Positions 9,536 through 26,581 of a stretch of DNA of 64,000 bases are shown here, one piece after another. The notes beneath the pieces are model-generated. The model was not told the origin of the DNA and did no database searches. It saw nothing but the letters and a program-made list of their open reading frames with translations. The stretch's first letter is position 1. The number at the start of each line of letters is the position of its first letter. The position numbers were made by a program, and so were the translations under genes. The DNA comes from Agitococcus sp. (GTDB lineage: Bacteria; Pseudomonadota; Gammaproteobacteria; Pseudomonadales; Moraxellaceae), in NCBI GenBank assembly GCA_030646715.1, contig JAUSLJ010000033.1, positions 1 to 64,000 of the forward strand. Direction: 5' to 3'.

Positions 9536-9638
9536 TAAACATGCAACGCGGTAGGTGTTCTACCGTGTTGGTGAACAGCGAAAGAGGATAGACCAACTTC
9601 GCTATCAAATACTCAACAAAATGACTGGGGATTCCATC

Positions 9639-11015
9639 ATGAGCAACATTCTTCTTAATGCCGATTCGTACAAAGCCTCTCACTTCTTGCAATATCCACA
9701 AAACACCTCGACTGTTTCTAGCTACATTGAATCTCGTGGTGGCTTGTTTGAGGCGACGTTATTTTTTGGTTTACAGGCTTTTATCAAACAAACACTACTC
9801 AAGCCGTTTAACCAAGCCGATATTGATGAAGCAGACGAATTATTAACTGCTCATGGTGTGCCATTTAATCGCGCGGGTTGGCAATATATTTTGGATAACT
9901 ATAACGGCTTTTTACCCTTAGAAATCCAAGCCGTGCCAGAGGGTTCAGTCGTTGCCACGCACAAGGTTTTAGTGCAAGTACAAAACACCGATGCGAATTG
10001 TGCTTGGTTAACCAGTTATATCGAAACAGCATTATTGCGCGCTGTGTGGTATCCAACAACGGTTGCGACGGTTTCTTACCAATGCAAACAAGTGATTGCC
10101 CGTTATCTGGCCGCGACAGCAGACAGCATGGACGGCTTACTTTTTAAGCTTCACGACTTCGGTGCAAGGGGCGCAAGCAGCGAAGAGACCGCCGCACTTG
10201 GTGGCATGGCGCACTTAGTTAATTTTATGGGTAGCGATACCGTCAATGCGATCGTTGCCGCACGTCGTTATTACCAAGAGCCAATGGCAGGTTTTTCCAT
10301 TCCTGCCGCTGAACACAGCACGATTACTAGCTGGGGACGTGATGGCGAAAAAGACGCTTACGCTAATATGCTCAAGCAATTTGGTGGCGAGGGTAAATTA
10401 GTGGCGGTGGTGAGTGATTCTTATGACTTATGGAATGCCATTGATAATCTTTGGGGCGATGAATTACGTGATGCGGTAATCAATAGCGGTGGTACATTGG
10501 TGATTCGACCTGACAGTGGCGACCCTGTGCAAATTGTCAGTACCACCATTGAAAAGTTGATGGCGAAGTTTGGCTATAGCGTCAATAGCAAAGGCTATAA
10601 AGTATTACCTGCTTGTGTGCGTGTGATTCAAGGCGATGGTATTTGCTTGGCAACCATTGAAGCGATTTTGGTTGAAATGCAACAACGAGAATTGTCTGCC
10701 GATAATATTGCTTTTGGTATGGGTGGTGAGTTATTGCAAAAAGTGAATCGGGATACGCAAAAATTTGCCATGAAAGCCTCGGCGGCTTGTGTGAATGGTG
10801 ACTGGCGTGATGTTTATAAAGACCCCATTACTGACAGTGGCAAACGCAGCAAACGCGGTCGTTTAGCGTTGATTCGTACTGAAGATGGCCAAGTTGCAAC
10901 CGTGCGTGAAGATGAGTTAGCAGGCCGTGAAAACGTATTGCGGGTAGTGTATCGCAATGGTGAGTTGTTAGTGAATGAGTGTTTTGCTGAGATTAGAGCG
11001 AGAGTGACAGCATGA
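9639..11015 (+). CDS. nadV: Nicotinamide phosphoribosyltransferase NadV
   Basis: This 458-residue protein starts MSNILLNADSYKASHFLQYP, characteristic of bacterial Nampt. The ATG at 9639 follows GGGG with eight-base spacing. In-frame GTG (9555) and ATG (9621) codons upstream lack good sites and would add a non-conserved tail. Other landmarks are LLFKLHDFGARG, IPAAEHSTITSWG and VIRPDSGDP, which form the PRPP and nicotinamide pocket. The enzyme makes nicotinamide mononucleotide from nicotinamide and PRPP in one-step NAD salvage. The macro-domain gene overlaps its stop by four bases, and nrtR upstream probably represses it. Confidence 0.94.
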   Translation: MSNILLNADSYKASHFLQYPQNTSTVSSYIESRGGLFEATLFFGLQAFIKQTLLKPFNQADIDEADELLTAHGVPFNRAGWQYILDNYNGFLPLEIQAVPEGSVVATHKVLVQVQNTDANCAWLTSYIETALLRAVWYPTTVATVSYQCKQVIARYLAATADSMDGLLFKLHDFGARGASSEETAALGGMAHLVNFMGSDTVNAIVAARRYYQEPMAGFSIPAAEHSTITSWGRDGEKDAYANMLKQFGGEGKLVAVVSDSYDLWNAIDNLWGDELRDAVINSGGTLVIRPDSGDPVQIVSTTIEKLMAKFGYSVNSKGYKVLPACVRVIQGDGICLATIEAILVEMQQRELSADNIAFGMGGELLQKVNRDTQKFAMKASAACVNGDWRDVYKDPITDSGKRSKRGRLALIRTEDGQVATVREDELAGRENVLRVVYRNGELLVNECFAEIRARVTA

Positions 11016-11467
11016 AAACAAGACAAGGCGACTTGATTCAATTAGCTTTAGCAGGTGAGTTTGATGTAATTGTTCATGGTTGTAACTGTCATTGTCAGAT
11101 GGGGCGAGGTATTGCTTTAACCATTAAAGAGCAATTACCTGAAGCGTATTTGGCCGACTGTCAAACGCCTAAAAGTGATAAGTCGAAACTGGGCACAATG
11201 TCGATGGCTGAGATTAAGCGCGGTGAAACGCAATTTACGGTTGTAAATGCCTATACCCAATTCGATTGGGCAGGAAATGGTGTTAATGCGGATTATCATG
11301 CGATTAGACAAGTGATGAAAGCCATTAAAGTAGCGTTTTCAGGTAAAAGGATTGGCTATCCTAAAATTGGCGCAGGTTTAGCTGGTGGTGATTGGGATAT
11401 TATTTATCCTATCATTTGCGAAGAGTTAGCAGGGGAGCATCATACTTATGTGGAATATGGCTTATAA
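11012..11467 (+). CDS. Macro-domain protein (ADP-ribose/deacylase-like)
   Basis: This 151-residue macro domain begins in an ATGA overlap with nadV. The pocket signatures are VIVHGCNCHCQMGRGIA (residues 18-34) and the glycine loop YPKIGAGLAGGDW near 110-122. This pattern resembles the ALC1/TARG1-type or Poa1-like macro proteins that bind ADP-ribose or its derivatives. Being in one transcript with NadV and under a regulator that senses ADP-ribose-type ligands suggests recycling of ADP-ribosyl products of NAD turnover. The exact substrate cannot be set from sequence. Confidence 0.85.
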   Translation: MKTRQGDLIQLALAGEFDVIVHGCNCHCQMGRGIALTIKEQLPEAYLADCQTPKSDKSKLGTMSMAEIKRGETQFTVVNAYTQFDWAGNGVNADYHAIRQVMKAIKVAFSGKRIGYPKIGAGLAGGDWDIIYPIICEELAGEHHTYVEYGL

Positions 11468-12348: not shown

Positions 12349-12945
12349 TTAACCCTGCTCCAAATAACCTACAATCATATTCACCAAACCATCACGCACA
12401 GCCTTTTCTGATAATAAACTTTCATGTTGCTGGCTCGCTAAACGCACCATCGTAAATAGCGTGCTATTAATAATAATAAATAAGCGTACCTGTAAATCGA
12501 CAATCGGGTATTGGTGATAATGTTTAATAAAATACATCCGCGCGGTTTCTGAAAAATGCTGTTGTAAAACATCTGCGACTTGTTCTGTTGGCAATCTGTG
12601 CCAATTACGGACTAACTCTAAATATAAGCCATCGCTACTATTCAACAAGCTAAAACCCATATCAATGGCTTGTTCTATCAATGTTCGCAGAGTCACACCT
12701 TCACGCGCAGGAATGTGTTTTAAGGTCGTGCCGACATCTAAAGCCAATTTATTGAGTAACCCCGTCAATAAAGCTTCTTTACTATCAAAATATTGATATA
12801 ACGAGCCGACACTGACACCTGCAATTTCAGCAATGGCAGGTGTACTAGTGTTATCGAGTCCACGCAAAGCAATACATTTGGCGGTTGCTTCCAACAAGGT
12901 ATTAACCATTTGTTTGGAACGTTGTTGCTGTGGTGACTTACGCAT
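12349..12945 (-). CDS. TetR-family repressor of the divergent DUF2236/Lva-like operon
   Basis: The ATG at 12943-12945 follows GGAAA and gives 198 residues. A TTG five codons out is less likely. An N-terminal TetR HTH lies at about residues 8-52 (ATAKCIALRGLDNTSTPAIA, then GVSVGSLYQYFDSKEALL). The C-terminal ligand domain is family-variable. It is divergent from the oxygenase operon, and the 129-base gap holds two overlapping perfect palindromes (13013-13048), the probable operator for both directions. The inducer is probably an acyl or hydroxyacyl metabolite of the operon (inference). Confidence 0.88.
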   Translation of the reverse strand: MRKSPQQQRSKQMVNTLLEATAKCIALRGLDNTSTPAIAEIAGVSVGSLYQYFDSKEALLTGLLNKLALDVGTTLKHIPAREGVTLRTLIEQAIDMGFSLLNSSDGLYLELVRNWHRLPTEQVADVLQQHFSETARMYFIKHYHQYPIVDLQVRLFIIINSTLFTMVRLASQQHESLLSEKAVRDGLVNMIVGYLEQG

Positions 12946-13012
12946 AACACGATTTTCCAAAAAACGAGAACTTAGGCAGAGAATAAGTTAAAAAAGGGCT
13001 AAACGCGAATTG

Positions 13013-13048
13013 AATGCGAATATAGTTTCGCATTATTGTCGAAACTAT
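13013..13048. promoter_or_regulatory. Two overlapping palindromic operators for the TetR-type regulator
   Basis: Palindrome 1 is AATGCGA (13013-13019), an 8-base spacer, TCGCATT (13028-13034). Palindrome 2 is ATAGTTTCG (13022-13030), a 9-base spacer, CGAAACTAT (13040-13048). All arms are perfect and the two share ATAGTTTCGCATT. They lie between divergent tetR and oxygenase starts, 26 bases before the latter's ATG. Confidence 0.75.
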
Positions 13049-13074: not shown

Positions 13075-14313
13075 ATGAATTCTGCATCCGTTGAACGCCG
13101 TCCCGTGCCGAAACGGGCAAGACCTTTTGCTAAAGCCCATAAACATACGCCCAAATTACTAAAATTGTTTCTTGGCCGTGATTTAACGCCAAGTCGTGAT
13201 GAATATGATCGTGTGGTTGATGCGTTATGGGACGGCGATTTAGAAATGGATGCGTTAGTAGAGTGGATGTATGACTCCGACACCACCGCCGCACGCAAAA
13301 TGTTTAAGCAAGCGATGGAGCAGGGCGTTGACAGCATTCCAAATGCGCCAGAACCATTACGCCATTTTTTCAACACCATCGAAAAAACACCTACATGGCT
13401 AGACAAAGATTTACTTAATGAAGGTATGTTATTTATTCATGGGACGGGTTTAGCTTCAACCTATGTGTTGCGTGATTTGGCGTTAATGGGTGGCTATTTG
13501 CTGTCGGGTTTTAATCAATCGTTGGTGATGACGGGGGCATTAAATCGAGGCACTAAACAACGAGTCGCAGAAACAGGTAAATGGTGGATGAACTGCACCA
13601 CTCCCAACGGGTTAGAGCGTTTTGGCGAAGGTTTTAAAACAACGATTCATGTGCGTATGGTTCATGCCTTAGTGAGACGCAATCTCGCCGCTCGACCTGA
13701 TTGGGATAGCAGTCAATGGGCATTGCCGATTAGCCAAATTGATATGGTTGCCACTTATTTAGGTTTTAGCGTGGTGATGTTGGGTGGTTTGCGGATGTTG
13801 GGCATTCCTATCACTCCGCGTGAGTCAAAAGCCGTGATGCATCTATGGAGTTATGCTTGTTGGTTGATGGGCGTAGAGGAAAAATGGCTAGTCTTTACTG
13901 AACGTGAAGCGATGGTGCTGTTGTATCACACGTTTATGACACAAAGTAAACCCGATGCCAGTAGTCGAGAGTTGGCGCAAGCTTTAGCGCAAGAACCATT
14001 AGAGCGTAGTTTTCCTGCGATGCAGTCGTTGCGTCGTAAATTGTATTACCACCAACATCTCAGCATTAGCCAGTATTTTTTAGGCACTGAAAAAATGGCG
14101 CAACTGGGTTTGCCTGAACATATTTTACCGTGGTTTCCTGCACTGACGTTTGCGCCGCGATTGGCACAATACAGCTTACAACATTGGCTACCGAATCAAC
14201 GGCAGAAGCAACAGCAAGAAGGCCGAAAGCTACAACAAGAGGCGTTGGATTCGTTGTTTGGTGATAAAGAGCAACAGGTGATTCAGCCCAATGCAAGTCA
14301 TCCCGCGCATTAA
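13075..14313 (+). CDS. DUF2236 (MpaB/Lcp-like) oxygenase
   Basis: This 412-residue protein is of the DUF2236 family, which includes the haem-containing latex-clearing protein Lcp and the fungal MpaB oxygenase. It shows the family-like helical core with LRHFFNTIEKTPTWLD, GTGLASTYVLRDLALMGGYL, RVAETGKWWMNC and a His-rich FKTTIHVRMVHALVRR segment (near residues 190-205). These supply candidate haem ligand and catalytic residues. There is no signal peptide. It is the first gene of the TetR-controlled operon and could cleave or oxidise an unsaturated chain, feeding 4-oxo or 4-hydroxy acids to the LvaABCD-like enzymes behind it. The substrate is unknown. Confidence 0.78.
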   Translation: MNSASVERRPVPKRARPFAKAHKHTPKLLKLFLGRDLTPSRDEYDRVVDALWDGDLEMDALVEWMYDSDTTAARKMFKQAMEQGVDSIPNAPEPLRHFFNTIEKTPTWLDKDLLNEGMLFIHGTGLASTYVLRDLALMGGYLLSGFNQSLVMTGALNRGTKQRVAETGKWWMNCTTPNGLERFGEGFKTTIHVRMVHALVRRNLAARPDWDSSQWALPISQIDMVATYLGFSVVMLGGLRMLGIPITPRESKAVMHLWSYACWLMGVEEKWLVFTEREAMVLLYHTFMTQSKPDASSRELAQALAQEPLERSFPAMQSLRRKLYYHQHLSISQYFLGTEKMAQLGLPEHILPWFPALTFAPRLAQYSLQHWLPNQRQKQQQEGRKLQQEALDSLFGDKEQQVIQPNASHPAH

Positions 14314-14325
14314 GGAGAGCCTAAC

Positions 14326-14376
14326 GTGATTTTAATATTAATTTGGCTATATAAACGTTACGGTGGTATTCGCTAA
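14326..14376 (+). CDS. Candidate 16-codon ORF between oxygenase and SDR
   Basis: A GTG at 14326 follows AAGGAG with good spacing and runs 16 codons to a TAA that shares its last base with the ATG of the SDR gene. The peptide begins MILILIWLYKRYGGIR: a short hydrophobic stretch and then basic residues. The SDR has no strong ribosome site of its own, so this may be a coupling leader or a tiny membrane peptide. Not established as expressed. Confidence 0.4.
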   Translation: MILILIWLYKRYGGIR

Positions 14377-15155
14377 TGGTAAATTTACCTTCGTTCGGTT
14401 TAGATGGCCAAATCGTGATGGTGACAGGTGCATCAAGCGGTTTGGGCTTGTATTTTGTGCATTTATTAGCGGCTGCGGGTGCGGAAGTTGTATTAGCTGC
14501 ACGAAGTTTAGATAAATTACAAGTGACGGTAGATGAACTACACAGCGCAGGACATCGTGCTTATGCGGTGGCGATGGATGTCAGCAATAAAGCCTCTGTA
14601 CAACATGCTTTTGTCGAAGCAGAACAATTATTAGGTGGTCGAACTATTCAATTATTGGTCAACAATGCAGGCTGGTGTGGTCGCAGTTTTTTTCTTAATG
14701 TGGAAGAAGAAGAGTGGGAGACGGTGATTGATACCAGTCTCAAAGGCTCATTTTTAGTGGCGCAAGAGATGTCTCGTCGTTTAGTGGCCGCTAAACAGGC
14801 AGGTAGTATAGTTAATATTGCTTCGATTTTAGGACTACGAGTGACCAGTGCCGTATCGCCATATTGTGCTGCCAAAGCAGGTTTGATTCACTTTAGTCAA
14901 GCAATGGCATTGGAGTTAGCGCGCTATCAAATTCGCGTTAACGTATTAGCACCAGGTTATATTGAAACCGATATGAATCGTGATTTTTGGTTGACTGATG
15001 CAGGCCAACAAATGTTAAAACGTATTCCTCAACGTCGTTTAGGCCAAACGGATGATTTAGCCGCGCCATTGCTATTATTGCTATCAGACGCAGGGCGTTA
15101 TCTTACAGGCAGTACCCTTACCGTTGATGGCGGCCATATTTGTAATAGTATCTAA
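14376..15155 (+). CDS. Short-chain dehydrogenase/reductase, LvaD-like position
   Basis: This 259-residue classical SDR has TGASSGLG (NAD(P)-binding, residues 18-25), NNAG near 92, a Ser in NIASILG near 147 and the catalytic YCAAK near 163-167. By position next to LvaC-, LvaA- and LvaB-like genes it is a candidate for interconversion of 4-oxoacyl-CoA and 4-hydroxyacyl-CoA, as LvaD does in levulinate catabolism. It could instead act on a 3-hydroxyacyl-CoA. It begins on the stop codon of the 16-codon ORF. Confidence 0.8.
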   Translation: MVNLPSFGLDGQIVMVTGASSGLGLYFVHLLAAAGAEVVLAARSLDKLQVTVDELHSAGHRAYAVAMDVSNKASVQHAFVEAEQLLGGRTIQLLVNNAGWCGRSFFLNVEEEEWETVIDTSLKGSFLVAQEMSRRLVAAKQAGSIVNIASILGLRVTSAVSPYCAAKAGLIHFSQAMALELARYQIRVNVLAPGYIETDMNRDFWLTDAGQQMLKRIPQRRLGQTDDLAAPLLLLLSDAGRYLTGSTLTVDGGHICNSI

Positions 15156-15179
15156 TCCTATCTTTGAGGAATCACGCGC

Positions 15180-16379
15180 ATGGATTTTTCCCTATCCCCC
15201 GAAATTAATGATTACCGTTTGCGCGTTCGTGCTTTTGTCGAACAGCACGTCATGCCCTTAGAAAAAGATCCAACCGCGTTTGATGCCCATGAAAATATTC
15301 AAGAGTCGCGGGTCGCAGAAATTCGGGCATTGGCTAAAGCTCAAGGTTTGTGGGCATTTCAAATGCCGAAAGAACGCGGTGGCGCGGGTTTAGGCGTGAT
15401 GGGTATGGCGGCTGTCTATGAAGAAGCGGCACGTTCCCCCTTTGGCCCTGTGATGTTTAATGCGGCACCACCCGATGATGGTAATATGATCGTCTTAAAT
15501 AAAATTTTAGCCACCGAAGAACTCAAGCAACGCTGGTTACAACCGATTATCGACGGTACAGTTCGCTCTGCGTTTGCCATGACCGAACCGCAAGGCTGTG
15601 GCTCTGACCCTTCGTTGACCTATACCACCGCGACCAAACAAGGCAATAAGTGGATTATCAACGGTCGCAAATGGTTTATTACAGGCGCAGAAGGCGCGCA
15701 GCATTTTATTTTGTTAGCCCGTACCAGCGACGACGAGCGTAAAGGCTTAACCGCGTTTTTGTTTGATGCCAAGCAAACAGGTTGGCGTATTGAGCGTCGT
15801 ATTCCCATCATGGGGCCAGAAGAGCATGGCGGCCATTGTGAGTTAGTTTTTGAAGGTCTAGAAATTCCTGATGAAAACCGTTTGCTCGGTGTCGGTGATG
15901 GTTTGAAAGTCACGCAAATCCGTTTAGGCACAGCACGATTAACACACTGTATGCGTTGGTTAGGATTAAGCAAACGCTGTTTAGAAGAAGCTTCGGCCTA
16001 TGTCGCCCATCGAATGAGCTTCGGCCAAACATTAGCGGCACATGAAGGCGTGCAATGGATGTTGGGTGATGTCGCCAAAGATATTCAAATTGGCCGACTG
16101 TTAACCATGCAAGCGGCATGGAAGTTAGATCAAGGCGATTTTGCCCGTAGCGATATTTCCATCGCCAAAATTCATGCTGCCGATACATTACATAAAGCAG
16201 CCGATACCGCAATTCAATTATTGGGTGCGCGCGGTTATTCCAAAGACACGATTGTCGAATGGATTTATCGTTATGCCCGTCAAGCGCGTTTGGTTGATGG
16301 CGCTAGCGAAATTCATAAAATGGTGTTATCGCGTGCCTATTTAAGTGAAGGTCAGGACTTCTTTCGTTGGGGAGTATGA
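15180..16379 (+). CDS. Acyl-CoA dehydrogenase, ACAD10/11 (LvaC) type
   Basis: This 399-residue FAD flavoprotein has FAMTEPQGCGSDPS (flavin/substrate loop, near 122), WFITGAEGA and a C-terminal LLGARGYSKD segment. The catalytic-Glu region reads VDGASEIHKM (Glu 377), the DG-x-x-E-(I/V)-H form found in ACAD10/11 and LvaC rather than the usual EGT form of fatty-acid enzymes. In LvaC and ACAD11 the enzyme removes phosphate from 4-phosphoacyl-CoA, forming an enoyl-CoA. The adjoining APH-like kinase gene overlaps by four bases, matching the fused kinase-dehydrogenase arrangement of ACAD10/11. Confidence 0.86.
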   Translation: MDFSLSPEINDYRLRVRAFVEQHVMPLEKDPTAFDAHENIQESRVAEIRALAKAQGLWAFQMPKERGGAGLGVMGMAAVYEEAARSPFGPVMFNAAPPDDGNMIVLNKILATEELKQRWLQPIIDGTVRSAFAMTEPQGCGSDPSLTYTTATKQGNKWIINGRKWFITGAEGAQHFILLARTSDDERKGLTAFLFDAKQTGWRIERRIPIMGPEEHGGHCELVFEGLEIPDENRLLGVGDGLKVTQIRLGTARLTHCMRWLGLSKRCLEEASAYVAHRMSFGQTLAAHEGVQWMLGDVAKDIQIGRLLTMQAAWKLDQGDFARSDISIAKIHAADTLHKAADTAIQLLGARGYSKDTIVEWIYRYARQARLVDGASEIHKMVLSRAYLSEGQDFFRWGV

Positions 16380-17419
16380 CCTTTATGTCGGCCATATCAG
16401 TGACTATGCCTTTACCGCAACAGCAAGCCATTGTTGAATTTATCCGCCGTGTTGCAGAGGCGCAAGATGTGCAACTGCAAACGGTAAAGTTACTCACAGG
16501 TGGCGCAATTCAAGAAAATTGGCTACTGGAGTTAGAGGTGACAGGCGGAAATTACGCAGGTCATTTGGCAGTAGTTTTACGCTCGGATGCGGCATCAGCC
16601 GTTTCCTCTTCTCATTCACGAGCTCAAGAATTTGCTTTATTACAAGCAGCTTTTGCGGTGGGTGTCACTGTACCCGAGCCTTTATGGTTAGGAGAGAAAA
16701 GCGTCTTTGGCCGTGATTTTTTTATCATGCGTAAAGCCAATGGTATCGCGGCAGGGCATCGTATAGTTAAAGACTTGGGCTTAGGTGGCGACCGTGAATT
16801 ATTGACCGAGCGTATGGGCGAGGAAATGGCACGGCTGCATCGTATTCAACCACCTCATGAGCGTTTAGCTTTTTTGCCTATGCCTCAATTGTCGCCTGCA
16901 CTACAAGGCATACAAAGCTTCCGCCAGTTTTTAGACCAACATCATACGCCATTCCCTGCTTTAGAATGGGGAATCCGTTGGCTAGAACGTTATGCGCCAC
17001 AGACAACAGAATTAGTATTGGCGCACCGTGACTGGCGTACAGGAAATTACATGTTAGATGAGCATGGTCTAACGGCGGTATTAGATTGGGAGTTTGCCGC
17101 GTGGTCAGACCGTTTGGAAGATATTGGTTGGTTTTGCGCGCGTTGTTGGCGCTTTGGCCAGTTTAACAACGAGGCGGGCGGTATTGGTTCTCGGGCAGCG
17201 TTATATCGCGGTTATGAACGTATTTATGGTCAACCATTAGAGTGGCAAAACGTTTACTACTGGGAGGTCAATGCTCACGTCCGTTGGGCGATTATTGCCA
17301 TTCAGCAGGGTGAACGCCATGTGTCAGGACAAGAGCCATCATTAGAGTTAGCGTTAACGGCGCATATTGTTCCAGAATTAGAACTAGAAATTTTAAGGAT
17401 GACGTTAAATCATGCGTGA
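16376..17419 (+). CDS. APH/ChoK-like kinase of 4-hydroxyacyl-CoA (LvaA-like)
   Basis: The ATG at 16376 overlaps the dehydrogenase stop (ATGA). An ATG at 16385, ten bases after GGGGAG, is an equally good start. About 348 residues show the aminoglycoside-phosphotransferase fold: GGAIQENWLLEL (ATP loop, near 40), LVLAHRDWRTGNYMLD (catalytic HxDxxxxN, near 220) and AVLDWEFAAWSD (Mg-binding DWE). In the Lva pathway LvaA with LvaB phosphorylates the 4-hydroxyl group of 4-hydroxyacyl-CoA. The adjacent LvaC-like and LvaB-like genes support that reaction here. Confidence 0.84.
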   Translation: MTFMSAISVTMPLPQQQAIVEFIRRVAEAQDVQLQTVKLLTGGAIQENWLLELEVTGGNYAGHLAVVLRSDAASAVSSSHSRAQEFALLQAAFAVGVTVPEPLWLGEKSVFGRDFFIMRKANGIAAGHRIVKDLGLGGDRELLTERMGEEMARLHRIQPPHERLAFLPMPQLSPALQGIQSFRQFLDQHHTPFPALEWGIRWLERYAPQTTELVLAHRDWRTGNYMLDEHGLTAVLDWEFAAWSDRLEDIGWFCARCWRFGQFNNEAGGIGSRAALYRGYERIYGQPLEWQNVYYWEVNAHVRWAIIAIQQGERHVSGQEPSLELALTAHIVPELELEILRMTLNHA

Positions 17420-17768
17420 ACAACCTGATGGTCGAGCTTTATTAGCGATTGCGCGGACAGTACTGCGCGAACAGTTATTGCCTTTATTGCCAAAAGAGCA
17501 ACATTACAGCGCGTTAATGATTGCCAACGCCATGAGCATAGCCGAACGACAATTACAGTACGGTGATGCGCCGCAACAAGCCGAGCGTCAAGCCTTGGTG
17601 GCCTTGCTGCAACAAGAGGGTGATTTAGTATTATTACAGCGCGAGTTAGTCCGTCGAATACGTTTGGGTTGGCTCGATGAGCAAACGGAAGCTCAACAAT
17701 TATTGTGGAATATGACTGAGCAACGAGTAAAAGAAAGTGCGCCTAAAAGTTTGTTGCGTGGTGAGTGA
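17412..17768 (+). CDS. DUF6285 small protein (LvaB-like kinase partner)
   Basis: This 118-residue helical protein starts eight bases inside the kinase gene. The pattern PDGRALLAIARTVLREQLLP, then MIANAMSIAERQL, matches DUF6285, the LvaB family. LvaB is needed for activity of LvaA and is found next to APH-like kinases of this group. It has no catalytic motif of its own. It ends the operon, followed by a palindromic repeat. Confidence 0.8.
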   Translation: MREQPDGRALLAIARTVLREQLLPLLPKEQHYSALMIANAMSIAERQLQYGDAPQQAERQALVALLQQEGDLVLLQRELVRRIRLGWLDEQTEAQQLLWNMTEQRVKESAPKSLLRGE

Positions 17769-17872: not shown

Positions 17873-18748
17873 TTAACGCGGCTCTTTCGCCTGTAAACTA
17901 AACGCATCTACCCGCGCGGGATTGTTTGACTCATGAAATGCTTCCCGCGCATACCATGCTTTTTTCAACCGATAAAACGGAATCGTCGGATACAAATGAT
18001 GCACTAAATGCCAGTTTTGACCCATCATTAACGGTGTCAATAACCATTCCCAACCGTCACGCAACATCGTCGCACCATAAAAATCATCTTTTTGCAAAAT
18101 GGTATGCGGATGATGCGGTAAATAAACAAACACCAGCACAATCAATGCCAAACCCATACGAGATGCCAAAAACCAAAAAACAAATAACTGCCAACCGCAA
18201 AACCAAAACAATATCGCTAATGCCGCTACGCCTAAGGGCAGTTGTAAGATGATTTGCCGTACTTCACTTTTGGGGCGTTGTTTAGCAACACGAAAATAAG
18301 CAGGCAAATACGACAATTCAAAAAAAGGCCATAGAAAATAACTATACCAACGATGTGTCAGCGAGGCATCGGGGTCTTTACCGACTTCATTGGTAAAGCG
18401 GTGATGTTGCATGTGTCCCCAGCGTAAGGCTTTAGGCGAAATATAGGGCAATAATAAGTTAATGGTTAACATCGCTAATAAATCGTTAATTTTCTCGTCG
18501 TTAGATGCCGAACGATGCACCGCTTCATGGATAGGCGTAAACAGATAATAGCCAATAATTGCACCAGGGATTGCGGCTAAGACGGGATTAATCCATTCGC
18601 AGGTCACAGCAACAATTAAAAATAACGCCAACGGTAAGGTGACGGCCAAAATAGCAACGACAGGCCACGAAATCTTGGGCTTGATGTGCAGACGTTTTAA
18701 TAATTCTGGGTCGTCATCCGTGGTGGTGAAGGTTGGGGTCTGGTTCAT
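17873..18748 (-). CDS. Membrane fatty-acid desaturase / hydroxylase
   Basis: The 291-residue integral membrane protein has three histidine boxes: HEAVH near 80, HMQHH near 118 and HLVHH near 250. These are the di-iron ligands of desaturases and beta-carotene-hydroxylase-like enzymes. About four TM helices flank them. The ATG at 18746-18748 is chosen over a GTG four codons upstream; neither has a strong ribosome site. No cytochrome-b5 or ferredoxin domain is fused. The substrate (fatty acid or carotenoid-like) is not decided by sequence. Its promoter lies in copy 1 of the 79-bp repeat. Confidence 0.8.
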   Translation of the reverse strand: MNQTPTFTTTDDDPELLKRLHIKPKISWPVVAILAVTLPLALFLIVAVTCEWINPVLAAIPGAIIGYYLFTPIHEAVHRSASNDEKINDLLAMLTINLLLPYISPKALRWGHMQHHRFTNEVGKDPDASLTHRWYSYFLWPFFELSYLPAYFRVAKQRPKSEVRQIILQLPLGVAALAILFWFCGWQLFVFWFLASRMGLALIVLVFVYLPHHPHTILQKDDFYGATMLRDGWEWLLTPLMMGQNWHLVHHLYPTIPFYRLKKAWYAREAFHESNNPARVDAFSLQAKEPR

Positions 18749-18771
18749 AGCAAGACACACGCGATAGATAA

Positions 18772-18850
18772 CTGGGGAGTTTGACTATTGCGCAGTAGGG
18801 ATGTTTACGAAAGGGTTAACGCTGCCAGTTGGTGGGATAATGCTGCCAAT
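18772..18850 (+). repeat. 79-bp direct repeat, copy 1 (left border of the PKS region)
   Basis: It aligns without gaps to 23957-24035 with about 10 mismatches over 79 bases. A core from TTAACGCTG to ATAATGCTG is identical. Flanks outside the 79 bases differ, so these are element borders. The sequence has no clear inverted repeats and its origin is unknown. Confidence 0.8.
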
Positions 18851-18979
18851 CGTCCGCATCCATCGCCAAACACTGACAAAGGTGTAGTAGCAAGTATTCG
18901 CCGTTGGTTAGAAAGCAATGACATCTCCCCTGAATTGATGAAGGAGCAAACTGATGATGAACAATCAAATGACGATTAA
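18788..18979 (+). CDS. Uncertain ORF, probable remnant ahead of truncated hicB
   Basis: This open frame starts only with TTG inside the 79-bp repeat and has no ribosome site. Its C-terminal part (ASIRRWLESNDISPELMKEQ, then acidic residues) looks like real protein and overlaps the hicB start by 26 bases. It is not HicA by any motif I can see. It may be the tail of a gene whose 5' part was replaced by the repeat. Function unknown. Confidence 0.25.
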   Translation: MRSRDVYERVNAASWWDNAANRPHPSPNTDKGVVASIRRWLESNDISPELMKEQTDDEQSNDD

Positions 18980-19067
18980 CGGTCATATTGCCGTGATTAG
19001 CTTTGACCCTGATATGGATTTATTTCGAGGTGAGTTTGTTGGCTTAAATGGCGGGGCGTCATGCTGA
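18954..19067 (+). pseudogene. Truncated HicB antitoxin N-terminus
   Basis: AAGGAG precedes ATGATG. The frame encodes MTINGHIAVISFDPDMDLFR (from residue 6) and GEFVGLNGGA, the start of the HicB RNase-H-like domain, then stops after 37 residues. Normal HicB is about 110 residues and continues after the GLNGGA motif. The break falls where the 3' end of the PKS cluster begins (hydrolase stop at 19059). No hicA and no hicB remainder were seen at the other end of the cluster. Confidence 0.75.
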
Positions 19068-19898
19068 TTTTGCCGAATTCGCCAGAAAAGTGTTAATTCG
19101 TGATGCCAGTGCTAATGGCTGTTCAAGTGAAAGATCGTGTCCTGCTTTTGGCATAATTTCCATGATGGCATTAGGCAAATGTTCGCTCAAGTCCAGCCGA
19201 GCGGCACGGCCTGCCAACTTGTCGTATTCACCAAATAACAGCAGTGTTGGATGTGTAATTTGAATCAATGGTTTCTCTAATGAGTGTCGCAAGGCCATAG
19301 ACATCAGCAGAAACAAATTGCGGCGCGTCGAGGGTATTTCACGCACCTCTCGCTCAATGTTTCGTACACGTTCAGGATGGGCGGCGATGAACTCGGATGA
19401 TAGAACTTGGTGAACAAGACAGACTTCAAATGCGACCTTAGCTTTGCTCAAGCAGTGAGTAAATGATAATACCCTCGTTAATGTCCGCCAAGAAATAGCG
19501 TCTGGCCCTGGCAAGGTCGAGGCTAAAATAAGGCAGCCTGTGCGGGCGGGTGCATCAATAGCCAACCAAGTGGCAACCATCCCCCCTAACGACAAACCAA
19601 AAATATGCGCCCGTTCAATCTGTAAATAATCCAGTAGATATAAGGCATCGGCGGCCATAGCGCGTGTCGAATGGCGTAGAGGTACGTCACTGGAGCGGCC
19701 AACACCACGCGAATCAAACATGATAACGGGATGTAATAGCGATAACTGTTGAGCAAAACTGCCCCACAACGTCATGGAGCCGCCTAAGGGCCGATTGAGC
19801 AAAATAGGCAGCCCTACGTTCTGTTGCCCCAAGAGTTTGTAAGCAATATAACCGCCATCTGGCAACGGAGCAAAGCAGATTTCCGCAGGTGCGTTCAC
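19059..19898 (-). CDS. Alpha/beta hydrolase of the type III PKS cluster
   Basis: This 279-residue hydrolase has oxyanion-side NRPLGG near 35, FDSRGVGRSSD near 62, the nucleophile elbow GLSLGG near 102 and a C-terminal KAGHDLSLEQP carrying the catalytic His. The acid is likely Asp in GEYDKLAGR. No signal peptide. It overlaps the acyltransferase gene by four bases and is last in the five-gene operon. It could release or lactonise a polyketide intermediate, or cleave a thioester or ester (inference). Confidence 0.82.
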   Translation of the reverse strand: MNAPAEICFAPLPDGGYIAYKLLGQQNVGLPILLNRPLGGSMTLWGSFAQQLSLLHPVIMFDSRGVGRSSDVPLRHSTRAMAADALYLLDYLQIERAHIFGLSLGGMVATWLAIDAPARTGCLILASTLPGPDAISWRTLTRVLSFTHCLSKAKVAFEVCLVHQVLSSEFIAAHPERVRNIEREVREIPSTRRNLFLLMSMALRHSLEKPLIQITHPTLLLFGEYDKLAGRAARLDLSEHLPNAIMEIMPKAGHDLSLEQPLALASRINTFLANSAKSA

Positions 19899-20671
19899 AA
19901 TGCTGCCATCTCGTCGAGAGCCTGCTGCATTAGCATTTGTACTTGCCGAGCAGCCTGTAGCGAGTCGGCATCAGGGGCAATATGCACGGGCGGCAAAATA
20001 CGCAAGCGTAGCGGGAATGGGAGTGGCAGATAAGGCAGCCATGGCCCCAGTGCAACTCCCCAAGGTAGGGCAATGGCGATAGGAAAACGCTCAAGTCGAG
20101 CCCAATGCCTTAGGCACAAAAACTGAGCAATCGCTTTGCCTTCGGTGAAAATATAAGCACTACGGTGTGCGCCCTGTACCACGACAGGCACAATCGGCAC
20201 TCCATTGGCGCGAGCCACGTCAATAAAGCCTGTGCGCGGTAAAATGACGATTTCGTTGCGGCGACGAGAATGACGGTAGGCTTCCAAATCACCCCCAGGA
20301 TAAACCAGCACTTGACCGCCTGCCGCAAGGATACGATTGGCATTAGCGCGACACGCAGAGACAGCTCCAATCTGTTGTAGTAGCCGACCTAGCGGCGTAA
20401 ATTGGCGCATCGCAAAATCATGGGTTAAGGCAAATAAAGGATTATCCGAGCCAAGGGCGCGCCATAAGACGGGCAGGGTACACAGTAAATCAGGGCCAAA
20501 AATACCGCCATTATGATTGGCTACAAAGAGTACGGGGCCTTTGGGCAGATGCTCCAGTCCCTCAGTTTTTAAGCGTAAATAGTGAGTGTTGATGATTTCC
20601 ATCACAGGCAAAAGCGTGGCGATGAGTGCGGGGCTACGCTGGTCGAGAGCGTCAGCGTGATAGCGTTTCAT
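19895..20671 (-). CDS. PlsC-like lysophospholipid/MGAT-type acyltransferase
   Basis: This 258-residue protein has the acyltransferase block NHNGGIFGPD near 52, the H-(x)7-D form seen in the LPLAT/MGAT-like subgroup, followed by YPGGDLEAYR near 125 and PIVPVVVQGAH near 160. AAGGGG lies six bases before the ATG. It probably transfers an acyl group onto a lipid hydroxyl. Within a type III PKS operon it may acylate the phenolic lipid or quinol product. It lies ten bases after the FAD gene. Confidence 0.83.
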   Translation of the reverse strand: MKRYHADALDQRSPALIATLLPVMEIINTHYLRLKTEGLEHLPKGPVLFVANHNGGIFGPDLLCTLPVLWRALGSDNPLFALTHDFAMRQFTPLGRLLQQIGAVSACRANANRILAAGGQVLVYPGGDLEAYRHSRRRNEIVILPRTGFIDVARANGVPIVPVVVQGAHRSAYIFTEGKAIAQFLCLRHWARLERFPIAIALPWGVALGPWLPYLPLPFPLRLRILPPVHIAPDADSLQAARQVQMLMQQALDEMAAL

Positions 20672-20681
20672 TATTTTCCCC

Positions 20682-21863
20682 TTAAGACATTAGCCGCATG
20701 GCCTGCGTCACGGCAGAAGAAGGTATTCGCGTCAGGCTGGCGGCGAGCCTCAGACTACGAGGCATCAAACCTGCCCAACCCATCAGTAAACGCTGGCTTG
20801 GCAGCCAACGGCTAGCACGATAGAGGAGACCCGCGCGCCAGATTTGGCTGGCAATATCCTGACGAATTTGATGATGATAACTACCCGCGTCTAAGCCCGC
20901 GAGATATTGGTTGGCAGCCAATACCCCACTATGAAGAGCGATACCCATACCATCGCCTGTAAACGAAGAAATCACCCCAACTTGATCGCCTATGCGATAA
21001 ATATTGTCCGCATCATCAGTAGGTGGGTTATAGACAAAACCATAGGGTACGCGATAAATAGATAGGGGCTGTGCTAGCAGAGGGATGGCATTAGATAAGC
21101 GTCGCTGCAAGTGTGGGCAGATACGCAACAGTTCTTCTAGTAAACCTGCCCATGTACCACCACAGGCTTTTAGCCAGTTACGTTCTGCCAATAGACAGAG
21201 GTTGATTCGGCCATCCTCTACCCGTTGCAGGCCTGCATAACCATGCGCGAATAAAACCAACTCAACATGATTGGCGAGTGCCTGACGCTGCGCATTATCA
21301 ACGTCGAAATACATCTTAAAGCCAACGAGGTCTTCGGGAGGGCTATCGGGATTACGTCGTAACTCACGCAGATCATGCTTGCCTGTGGCTAGAAATAAGG
21401 TGTTGGTTCGTACGGTGCCTATGCTATGAAAGTTGAGGTCAATAGCGTCGGTGATGTTGGTAATACTGGCACGTTGGCCACGCCAAAGTAGCGCGCCACA
21501 CTGGCGAGCATGATTCAGTAGTGCTTCATCCAAACGATAACGCGAAAGACCTAAGCCATTAAACGGCAGGGTGGTTTCGACAACTTTTTTCTGGCAGACG
21601 AGACGCAGGCGGGAGGTGGTGTGACCACCGAGTGCCTCTAAATCTAGCCCAAGTCGTCGGAGATAGCCTTGGGTTTCTGTACTCAGAAATTCGCCGCAGA
21701 TTTTGTGCGTGGCAGAAGCTTCACGCTCTAATATCAACACCTCACGACCAGCCTTTGCCAATACACAAGCCGCGCTAGCCCCTGCCAAGCCACCACCCAC
21801 GACCACCACTTCGGCTGTCGTGGGCAGATATTTTGGCAAAAAATTGTTGTGCATGGCCGTCAT
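20682..21863 (-). CDS. FAD-dependent oxidoreductase (UbiH/geranylgeranyl-reductase-like)
   Basis: The start ATG at 21861-21863 overlaps the methyltransferase stop (ATGA) and follows AGGA with eight-base spacing. The product is 393 residues. It has the dinucleotide fold VVVVGGGLAGASAA near residue 18, CGEFLS near 56 and the second FAD motif YRIGDQVGVISSFTGDGMG near 285. The family covers aromatic-ring hydroxylases and geranylgeranyl reductases. After a type III PKS and a methyltransferase, ring hydroxylation toward a methoxyquinone lipid is plausible, as with SrsC in the Streptomyces srs pathway (analogy only). Confidence 0.84.
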   Translation of the reverse strand: MTAMHNNFLPKYLPTTAEVVVVGGGLAGASAACVLAKAGREVLILEREASATHKICGEFLSTETQGYLRRLGLDLEALGGHTTSRLRLVCQKKVVETTLPFNGLGLSRYRLDEALLNHARQCGALLWRGQRASITNITDAIDLNFHSIGTVRTNTLFLATGKHDLRELRRNPDSPPEDLVGFKMYFDVDNAQRQALANHVELVLFAHGYAGLQRVEDGRINLCLLAERNWLKACGGTWAGLLEELLRICPHLQRRLSNAIPLLAQPLSIYRVPYGFVYNPPTDDADNIYRIGDQVGVISSFTGDGMGIALHSGVLAANQYLAGLDAGSYHHQIRQDIASQIWRAGLLYRASRWLPSQRLLMGWAGLMPRSLRLAASLTRIPSSAVTQAMRLMS

Positions 21864-22561
21864 TTTAATCGTCCTACACACAGACGAAACGGTATATGCC
21901 AGCTTATATTCGCCAAAATACCTGCTTGTGCTAATAAAGCCTGCCAGTCTGCACGACGAAAACTACGAGCAACAGAGACTGCTCCGTCATGGCGAACAAT
22001 AGGATGCCAGCGAGCCAAGCCCGCTAAAAGTGAATAGCCATAATAGGCCAGTGGATGACGCTGTAGATCAGCAATAAACCAACCGCGGCGCGCATACTGT
22101 TCCATCCATTGCAGAAAACTCACAATCTGACTATCCGTGAGGTGATGAGTGAACTGCGAGCTGACGATAAAGTCTGGAGGCGTTGCAGGTATAAACGTGA
22201 AGACATTGCCTGTGCAATAGTCGATATTCATCTCCGACGGGGTGGCCTGCCGAGCGGCTATCGCGCTGTTCGGATTCATGTCGATGCCTTGCAGCGTCAC
22301 CTTAAAACCACGTTGAGCGGCAAAGCGATGAATCATCCGCAATAAATCACCTTGTCCACAGGCAACATCCAGTATGGTGATGGCTGTACCCGCAGGTAAA
22401 CAGCGTATCGCTTGCTCCAGCCAGTGCAATGTCGCTTGATGAGTTCGAGTAACACGATTGACGGCGGCTAGATCGTTTAAGCATTGGTTGTAATCGGTGT
22501 TGCTAATATCATCATTATCCATTAACTCGGGCAGAGTACTGCGCTCTTTGAGCAATTTCAT
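21860..22561 (-). CDS. SAM-dependent class I methyltransferase of the PKS cluster
   Basis: This 233-residue Rossmann methyltransferase has motif I ITILDVACGQGDLL near 62-75, an acidic end of beta-2 in LQGIDMN near 92 and SSQFTHHLTD near 132. It starts two bases after the PKS gene. It likely O-methylates the polyketide ring, as in comparable phenolic-lipid clusters. The C-terminal substrate region shows nothing that fixes the substrate. Confidence 0.84.
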   Translation of the reverse strand: MKLLKERSTLPELMDNDDISNTDYNQCLNDLAAVNRVTRTHQATLHWLEQAIRCLPAGTAITILDVACGQGDLLRMIHRFAAQRGFKVTLQGIDMNPNSAIAARQATPSEMNIDYCTGNVFTFIPATPPDFIVSSQFTHHLTDSQIVSFLQWMEQYARRGWFIADLQRHPLAYYGYSLLAGLARWHPIVRHDGAVSVARSFRRADWQALLAQAGILANISWHIPFRLCVGRLK

Positions 22562-22563
22562 GA

Positions 22564-23658
22564 TTAGCTTGCCATCTGAAAGCGAAACGTTTCTGCGACC
22601 ATACCTGGGCCAAAAGCCATTGCCAAACCACGTGCTTCGTGTTGCTGTTGATGCAGGAAGTCCTGCAATACAAACATGACGGTTGCCGAGGACATATTGC
22701 CAAAGTTATTCAGTATGCGGCGAGAGCTACTAAGGTCATTAGTACTAAGCCCTAGTCCATTTTGCACAGCATCCAGTACTGAGCGACCGCCAGGGTGTAT
22801 CGCCCATAAGTCAAAGTCTTTAACCTGCTGTCCGCGCAATATTCTATTGGCTCCCGCTCGTTTCATATCCTCACGCAGGGTTTGATTAATCCGCTGCGGA
22901 ACTTGACCAGAAAGGTGCATATTGAAACCTTGGTCACCAATATGCCACGTAATGAGGTCGTTGCTGTCGGGAATGATGATCGCTAAGAAATCCAGCATGG
23001 CGATGCCCGTCGGCTGCGCTGTCACTAATGCCGCACTGGCACCATCACCAAACAACATCAGCGATAATAGGCAATTTAAGTCTGGGGTTTCTTGTAGATG
23101 CAGTGAGCACAACTCTAAATTAACGACTAAAACACGCGCAGCTGGATTGGCATGAACCGCTTGGTAAGCAACACGGAGAGCGGGTACAGCCGCAGAACAA
23201 CCCATAAAGCCAATCAGCGTCCGTTGAACATCAGGTCGAAGACCGAGAGCCGTCACTAGTTGTAGATCTAAGCCTGGTGCGGTAAAGCCAGTACACGATA
23301 CGACCACCAAGTGCGTAATACTTTCTAGCATAGCCATTGGGACTTCAAGTTGCAGTGCTGCCACGGCACGTGTTGCCAAACGTAGTGCTTCTATTTCGTA
23401 AAGTTCCATACGTGCACGGGTACTGGGGAAATTACCACGCGGATAGAAGCCACTTGCATCTATATCTTGTTCATTGACGATTTCGTCTGCATGCATAAAA
23501 GAATAACGATGTCCAATACCTGAACGTTCCGCCATGCGGTCGAATACTTGACGTGTGCGCTGGTCAGGGATCATGTTGCGCATCACCGCATTAATGGGAT
23601 GATGAATATCGTGCTCAGGTACTGCTGTACCGATGCCGTTGATGTGGGCTACTGCCAT
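22564..23658 (-). CDS. Type III polyketide synthase (chalcone-synthase superfamily)
   Basis: This 364-residue thiolase-fold enzyme has the complete type III triad: Cys 154 (GFMGCSAAVPALR), His 288 (WAIHPGGRS) and Asn 321 (NNFGNMSSAT). The CTGFTAPGLD and LMLFGDGASAALV motifs also match. Bacterial relatives condense a fatty acyl-CoA with malonyl-CoA units into alkylresorcinols or alkylpyrones. The adjacent methyltransferase, FAD enzyme and acyltransferase suggest a modified phenolic or quinone lipid. It is first in the operon. The cluster is visibly richer in G+C than its surroundings, suggesting transfer. Confidence 0.92.
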   Translation of the reverse strand: MAVAHINGIGTAVPEHDIHHPINAVMRNMIPDQRTRQVFDRMAERSGIGHRYSFMHADEIVNEQDIDASGFYPRGNFPSTRARMELYEIEALRLATRAVAALQLEVPMAMLESITHLVVVSCTGFTAPGLDLQLVTALGLRPDVQRTLIGFMGCSAAVPALRVAYQAVHANPAARVLVVNLELCSLHLQETPDLNCLLSLMLFGDGASAALVTAQPTGIAMLDFLAIIIPDSNDLITWHIGDQGFNMHLSGQVPQRINQTLREDMKRAGANRILRGQQVKDFDLWAIHPGGRSVLDAVQNGLGLSTNDLSSSRRILNNFGNMSSATVMFVLQDFLHQQQHEARGLAMAFGPGMVAETFRFQMAS

Positions 23659-26436: not shown

Positions 26437-26581
26437 GGGCTGTTATCCCAATAAAGAATCATTGGATGATGAGCGTTGGCTTGTTGACAGATTATTTTCA
26501 CCCACTTGGTATCCCATAGCAGTAAATGCGAATTTATATTCGTTTATAAATGCTAGGAGTGCAAGTGCTTCTTCTTTGTAA

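Follow-up and report, generated by a model that had tools for sequence, protein, structure and literature searches.

In a 64,000-nucleotide stretch of Agitococcus sp. DNA (contig JAUSLJ010000033.1, hereafter the window, from a source genome of about 4.2 Mb), five genes at 13075-17768, all on the plus strand and in one block, join a haem oxygenase of the DUF2236 family to a module resembling LvaABCD, the enzymes of levulinate catabolism in Pseudomonas. An lva-type module under a different regulator class and behind a DUF2236 oxygenase is new, and a limited literature search returned no description of such a combination. The operon is probably a real pathway for consuming unsaturated, perhaps isoprenoid, lipids, because relatives have joined oxygenase and module at least twice more. 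The fuller reading, in which the block forms a single catabolic operon under TetR repression and unites an alkene-cleaving oxygenase with Lva-type processing of 4-oxo fragments, stands at about an even chance. The operon brings into one testable pathway the question of what LvaABCD-type modules, and likewise most DUF2236 oxygenases, act on in nature.

Operon layout and the Lva-like module

The block had been proposed in a sequence-only reading of the window, and it proved real: the open reading frames lie where that reading placed them, all five genes scored above curated cut-offs in a profile search of the window proteins, and the same five genes occur in a second species (G003, loci L051/L089) with 82-92% protein identity and ratios of non-synonymous to synonymous substitution (dN/dS) of 0.04-0.13. 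The operon is therefore no assembly accident, and all five genes are under purifying selection between the two species. The features of the region are:

12349..12960, minus strand: TetR-family repressor (PF00440, E 2.9e-16), divergent from the operon
13005..13035, plus strand: 31-bp operator GCGAATTGAATGCGAATATAGTTTCGCATTA, from comparative genomics, between the repressor and oxygenase genes
13075..14313, plus strand: DUF2236/MpaB-Lcp-type b-haem oxygenase, predicted to cleave C=C bonds (PF09995 MPAB_Lcp_cat, E 2.8e-20)
14376..15155, plus strand: short-chain dehydrogenase/reductase (SDR), LvaD-like, predicted 4-oxoacyl-CoA reductase (PF13561/PF00106, E 3e-55)
15180..16379, plus strand: acyl-CoA dehydrogenase (ACAD) of the ACAD10/11-LvaC type, predicted to convert 4-phosphoacyl-CoA to 2-enoyl-CoA (family E 2e-37)
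16367..17419, plus strand: APH-like kinase, LvaA-like, predicted 4-hydroxyacyl-CoA kinase (PF01636, E 1.5e-26)
17412..17768, plus strand: DUF6285 protein, LvaB-like, predicted kinase partner (PF19802, E 9e-20)
17873..18760, minus strand: FA_desaturase-superfamily protein (PF00487, E 1.8e-31), convergent with the operon

The oxygenase and SDR genes are separated by 62 bp and the SDR and ACAD genes by 24 bp, while the kinase and DUF6285 genes overlap by 8 bp. The ACAD-kinase junction is tight, with the kinase TTG at 16367 lying inside the ACAD end; a kinase start near 16406 is likelier, and the true start of the TetR gene is probably the ATG near 12942. Scans for sigma-70 promoters and terminators gave nothing better than shuffled sequence. 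As had been noted from the sequence, no LvaE-like CoA ligase is visible in the 13075-17768 block; genome-wide, the top LvaE-like protein is only 33% identical and is encoded elsewhere.

The assignment of the last four genes to LvaABCD-like functions was borne out by comparison with the plasmid lva operon of P. aeruginosa p12939-PER, used as a yardstick, which also carries ligase and symporter genes and whose second gene is annotated '4-hydroxypentanoyl-CoA kinase subunit LvaB'. All four genes are adjacent in the window and pair with it one to one: SDR with LvaD (49.8% identity), ACAD with LvaC (43.2%), kinase with LvaA (49.9%) and the DUF6285 protein, encoded by a single-copy gene in the source genome, with LvaB (44.3%). 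The top PDB matches of the window ACAD are human and mouse ACAD11, in which R626, H634, R637 and D753 serve in holding the 4-phospho group and in catalysis (PMC12440821). The window enzyme has the full ACAD10/11-LvaC phosphate-pocket signature (R248, HCMR at 256-259 and catalytic D373), which is also found in LvaC and in the remaining modules of the same kind, but the ACADs beside other kinase-DUF6285 pairs (L081, L199, L207) lack this signature. The 4-hydroxyacyl-CoA assignment thus draws on evidence beyond membership of the general family. The kinase motifs HxDxxxxN and DxE are present in the translation as HRDWRTGN and DWE. With strong homology and active-site residues in place for the predicted enzyme set, conversion of 4-oxo/4-hydroxyacyl-CoA to 2-enoyl-CoA by the module, as the second half of the pathway, is well supported by analogy with characterised systems.

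The kinase-DUF6285-ACAD arrangement in L081, L199 and L207 has an ACAD with Glu at the catalytic position, and its DUF6285 kinases may act on substrates of another class.

Compared with the Pseudomonas operon for levulinate catabolism (lvaRABCDEFG), the SDR, ACAD, kinase and DUF6285 proteins are homologous, 43-50% identical and share the ACAD10/11-LvaC signature, but the gene order is D-C-A-B rather than A-B-C-D, the regulator is a TetR protein with a 31-bp operator whereas the plasmid lva operon has a PrpR-like one, the LvaE ligase, LvaF/G transporter (symporter) and LvaR genes are absent, and the first gene encodes a haem oxygenase. Mammalian ACAD10/ACAD11 likewise combine a kinase with an ACAD bearing the HCMR motif, the upstream Arg and the catalytic Asp; in the window, by contrast, the parts are separate proteins, with an additional SDR and DUF6285 protein, in a bacterial operon with an oxygenase.

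The oxygenase, its repressor and the regulon

The first gene had been read as Lcp/MpaB-like, and in fold and haem triad the protein does match enzymes that cleave C=C bonds. Its MPAB_Lcp_cat domain scored 73.8 bits against a cut-off of 23, its sequence matches the Lcp structure 5o1l (E 9e-16), and its AlphaFold model (pLDDT 92.6) has the all-helical Lcp/MpaB fold: VIA-align of the model gave Z 29.1 over 334 residues with Lcp (5o1m) and Z 17.4 with the t-anethole oxygenase of Stenotrophomonas (8s1j), the next match being at 3.7. The Arg/Thr/His haem triad of Lcp, R164/T168/H198 in LcpK30, is nearly invariant (PMC6311187). In an alignment of 51 sequences, R163, T167, R194 and H197 of the oxygenase are invariant, and R163/T167/H197 form the corresponding triad.

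The resemblance to the rubber oxygenase LcpK30 thus covers the fold, the haem His and the R/T/H triad, but identity is 20%, the distal haem ligand Lys167 of Lcp is replaced by Glu166 and Glu148 by Gln, and there is no signal segment. Since Lys167 and Glu148 are replaced, the protein is best classed, on sequence, as a haem oxygenase in a separate group of the DUF2236 family, and not as an Lcp in the strict sense. The N-terminus MNSASVERRPVPKRARPF, inspected by eye only, shows no export signal; the enzyme is probably intracellular, and a small intracellular substrate therefore appears likelier than a polymer. The MpaB-type C=C-cleaving oxygenases 8s1j and nitrile rubber oxygenase Nro1 share the domain family and fold, though structural identity to 8s1j is only 9%; the available part of the Nro1 report (PMC12724181) describes no Lva-type partner genes. 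From the modelled fold, the haem ligands and the characterised relatives, we infer that the oxygenase cleaves C=C bonds, as the first half of the pathway. Its hosts are mostly hydrocarbon- or lipid-degrading genera such as Alcanivorax, Alkanindiges, Solimonas and Acinetobacter.

A comparison of 81 oxygenase loci (the window and 80 others) revealed a divergent TetR gene just upstream of the oxygenase in 64, and a 31-bp element with the consensus GCGAATTGAATGCGAATACATATTCGCATTA in 57 of these 64 intergenic regions. The element consists of a palindrome, AATGCGAA-N6-TTCGCATT, and an upstream half-site; the window palindrome, at 13013-13034, is perfect. The window operator is the sole copy in the source genome at up to 3 mismatches (reversed-pattern control, 0), and no further sites above control were found there. 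The TetR protein would therefore be expected to bind 13005-13035 and, in the source genome, to control only the oxygenase-module unit, which agrees with the single repressor over the block claimed in the sequence-only reading. A 3-mismatch site at 26525, before an AraC gene, matches chance expectation and was not taken as a regulon member. Elsewhere in the source genome, a second DUF2236 gene at C31:17567 (region C31:17480-19096) is likewise accompanied by a divergent TetR gene of its own, with a weaker operator copy (score 32).

In relatives, operator copies precede several other genes. The metagenome-assembled genome UBA8513 (L090) has them before an Fpr-desaturase-thiolase set and before genes for an iron-type alcohol dehydrogenase (Fe-ADH), a thioesterase and an aldehyde dehydrogenase (ALDH) of the succinate-semialdehyde dehydrogenase (SSADH) type. 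Further copies stand before an HSDL2-type SDR (L091), a CYP120-like cytochrome P450 (G003 and G038), a desaturase (L235), a PF10118 protein in A. lubricus (L236) and a flavin-binding monooxygenase (FMO; L237:7726-9230 and L238:3882-5386). The nearest solved structure to the P450 is cyanobacterial CYP120; CYP120A1 appears with retinoic acid (PMC6274249, PMC9501733), as a retinoid-type P450. Taken together, the relatives' regulon fits lipid oxidation to C4/C5 carbonyls. As the operator defines a regulon in several hydrocarbon- or lipid-degrading genera, it offers a handle on the inducer and hence on the substrate.

Two observations extend this picture: the UBA8513 set at L090:15912-19119, whose ALDH is NADP-SSADH-like, was an unexpected addition to the regulon, and in L237 and L238 a gene resembling those of long-chain acyl-CoA ligases lies next to the FMO gene.

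Joining of oxygenase and module in relatives

The module usually sits between rep and yifB, with neither an oxygenase gene nor an operator. Such rep-DCAB-yifB loci were seen with both flanks in L077, L084 and L200, and with the yifB flank in L071-L073 and L075; these stand-alone modules of Pseudomonadales are direct orthologues, with ACADs up to 87% identical to that of the window. Among the 80 oxygenase loci other than the window, four have a full module nearby (L089, L095, L105, L109) and one an ACAD only (L124).

The linked loci differ in arrangement. In the window and G003 the module directly follows the oxygenase, and yifB of the source genome lies elsewhere, without a module. In Perlucidibaca (L095/L057), MetHyd-TetR-oxygenase-P450-HSDL2 genes stand between rep and the module, in which the kinase and DUF6285 genes are apparently fused. 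In Alcanivorax limicola (L109) and PBR18 (L105), TetR and oxygenase genes lie between the module and yifB, with the module convergent with TetR. Paraperlucidibaca (L124; L059:2291-3487) has an HCMR-type ACAD alone behind oxygenase-P450-SDR, and no DUF6285 gene was found genome-wide. The Perlucidibaca kinase and DUF6285 parts occupy a single open frame at L057:12200-13915, which suggests a fused LvaAB.

In the ACAD tree, two of the linked pairs group with unlinked modules, that of the window with those from UBA8513 and its relatives (support 98/97) and that of Alcanivorax with a single such module (99/99). Approximately unbiased (AU) tests on this tree rejected a single clade of all linked ACADs (p 9e-156) and a clade of the window with Alcanivorax (p 2.5e-5). 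These comparisons indicate at least three routes to the linkage, one each in the Agitococcus-like pair, in Perlucidibaca and in Alcanivorax limicola, and a functional connection is therefore favoured. The sequence-only reading had tied its case to conservation of the DUF2236 gene in the operon, and this held in part: linkage is rare (a full module at 4 of 80 loci), but the two were joined at least three times. The co-occurrence it had proposed as a check was also recovered. Across 390 genomes of the order, 38 have the oxygenase, 70 have DUF6285 and 18 have both, against 6.8 expected (Fisher p 9e-6, a statistic that ignores phylogenetic relatedness).

Two further cases were not counted as joining: in G324 (L197) unrelated genes lie in the 5 kb that separate a 34% identical oxygenase from a module, and in G085 the DUF6285 gene, 21 kb away from an oxygenase, belongs to another kinase-DUF6285 type. 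A plasmid search with the oxygenase returned homologues in Tsukamurella and Acinetobacter; no Lva-like genes were present in the annotated Tsukamurella plasmid neighbourhood or, by tblastn, beside the Acinetobacter copy.

Proposed pathway and alternatives

In the proposed pathway, the cytosolic b-type haem oxygenase would split an unsaturated lipid at a C=C bond to give carbonyl fragments, an isoprenoid being the most plausible substrate. Fragments ending as 4-oxo acids would be oxidised and activated with CoA by enzymes presumably encoded elsewhere; the LvaD-like SDR would reduce the 4-oxoacyl-CoA, the LvaAB-like kinase would phosphorylate the 4-hydroxyl of the 4-hydroxyacyl-CoA, and the LvaC/ACAD10-11-like dehydrogenase would remove the phosphate from the 4-phosphoacyl-CoA, yielding 2-enoyl-CoA for beta-oxidation. 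The repressor, bound at 13005-13035, would control the oxygenase and module only. That the oxygenase product is the module substrate we infer from the shared promoter and the repeated joining.

Several points weigh against such a pathway. Lva modules are missing from the vicinity of most oxygenase orthologues and no operator was found before the unlinked modules, so the oxygenase does not need the module. On the oxygenase tree alone, one origin of the linked oxygenases is not rejected (AU p 0.061), and the Perlucidibaca and Alcanivorax events share the rep-yifB site, possibly an insertion hotspot, while the Agitococcus-like event lies elsewhere. Genes for an aldehyde dehydrogenase, a CoA ligase and a P450 are all missing from the operon itself, no orthologue of the relatives' P450 was found in the source genome, and Lys167 and Glu148 of Lcp are not retained. 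The rarity of linkage, the usual operator-free location of the module and the shared site of two of the three joinings could also mean that two unrelated catabolic units share a promoter by chance, the module being merely co-induced with the oxygenase. This is quite unlikely given three routes with differing order and orientation, non-monophyletic linked modules, purifying selection in two species, and the move of the window module from the rep-yifB site to behind the oxygenase.

The substrate class is a separate matter. An isoprenoid substrate is an attractive hypothesis because cleavage of isoprene-type double bonds gives 4-oxo fragments and because one relative's regulon includes an SSADH-type ALDH. 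If true, it would explain the natural origin of levulinate-type acids and aid enzymatic upcycling of rubber-like polymers. The products of Lcp carry CHO and COCH3 ends (PMC5522427). A dedicated isoprenoid route is conceivable but unlikely: 1,5-diene bonds would be cleaved to C4/C5 1,4-dicarbonyls such as 4-oxopentanal, the module would feed levulinate-type acids into beta-oxidation, and the UBA8513 SSADH/alcohol dehydrogenase set would take the parallel aldehydes. Through such a route, lva-type pathways would be supplied with levulinyl-CoA in nature. Somewhat more credible, though still a minority view, is a general lipid-oxidation unit, in which the oxygenase acts on a hydrocarbon or fatty acid by hydroxylation or peroxidation, cleaving no isoprenoid, and the module handles 4-hydroxy/4-oxo fatty acids and gamma-lactones from many lipids. 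The largely hydrocarbon- or lipid-degrading hosts, the P450, FMO, desaturase-like and SDR genes among the regulon partners and the replaced Lcp residues agree with it, and ACAD10/11 take longer 4-hydroxyacyl-CoAs (PMC12440821); however, both close solved folds are C=C-cleaving enzymes, and the SSADH-type ALDH and Fe-ADH of the UBA8513 regulon fit carbonyl cleavage products.

Beyond the operon, the convergent desaturase gene (17873-18760) may share in this lipid theme; it has no operator of its own within the window, and relatives carry a desaturase gene near the oxygenase (33-57% identical), in one case with its own operator. Directly past it, at 19059-23658 on the minus strand, genes for a type III polyketide synthase (PKS), a methyltransferase, an FAD-dependent enzyme, a PlsC-like acyltransferase and an alpha/beta hydrolase lie in a row, resembling an alkylresorcinol- or pyrone-type lipid cluster. 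This proximity might suggest that the operon serves lipid biosynthesis together with the desaturase and PKS cluster (17873-23658), which is very improbable: the cluster is on the opposite strand and has no operator, it was not seen in the oxygenase neighbourhoods listed (no systematic search for it was made), and the Lva module is catabolic wherever tested. Upstream, at 9555-11467 on the plus strand, a nicotinamide phosphoribosyltransferase-like gene and a macro-domain gene overlap by 4 bp and are possibly an NAD-salvage pair.

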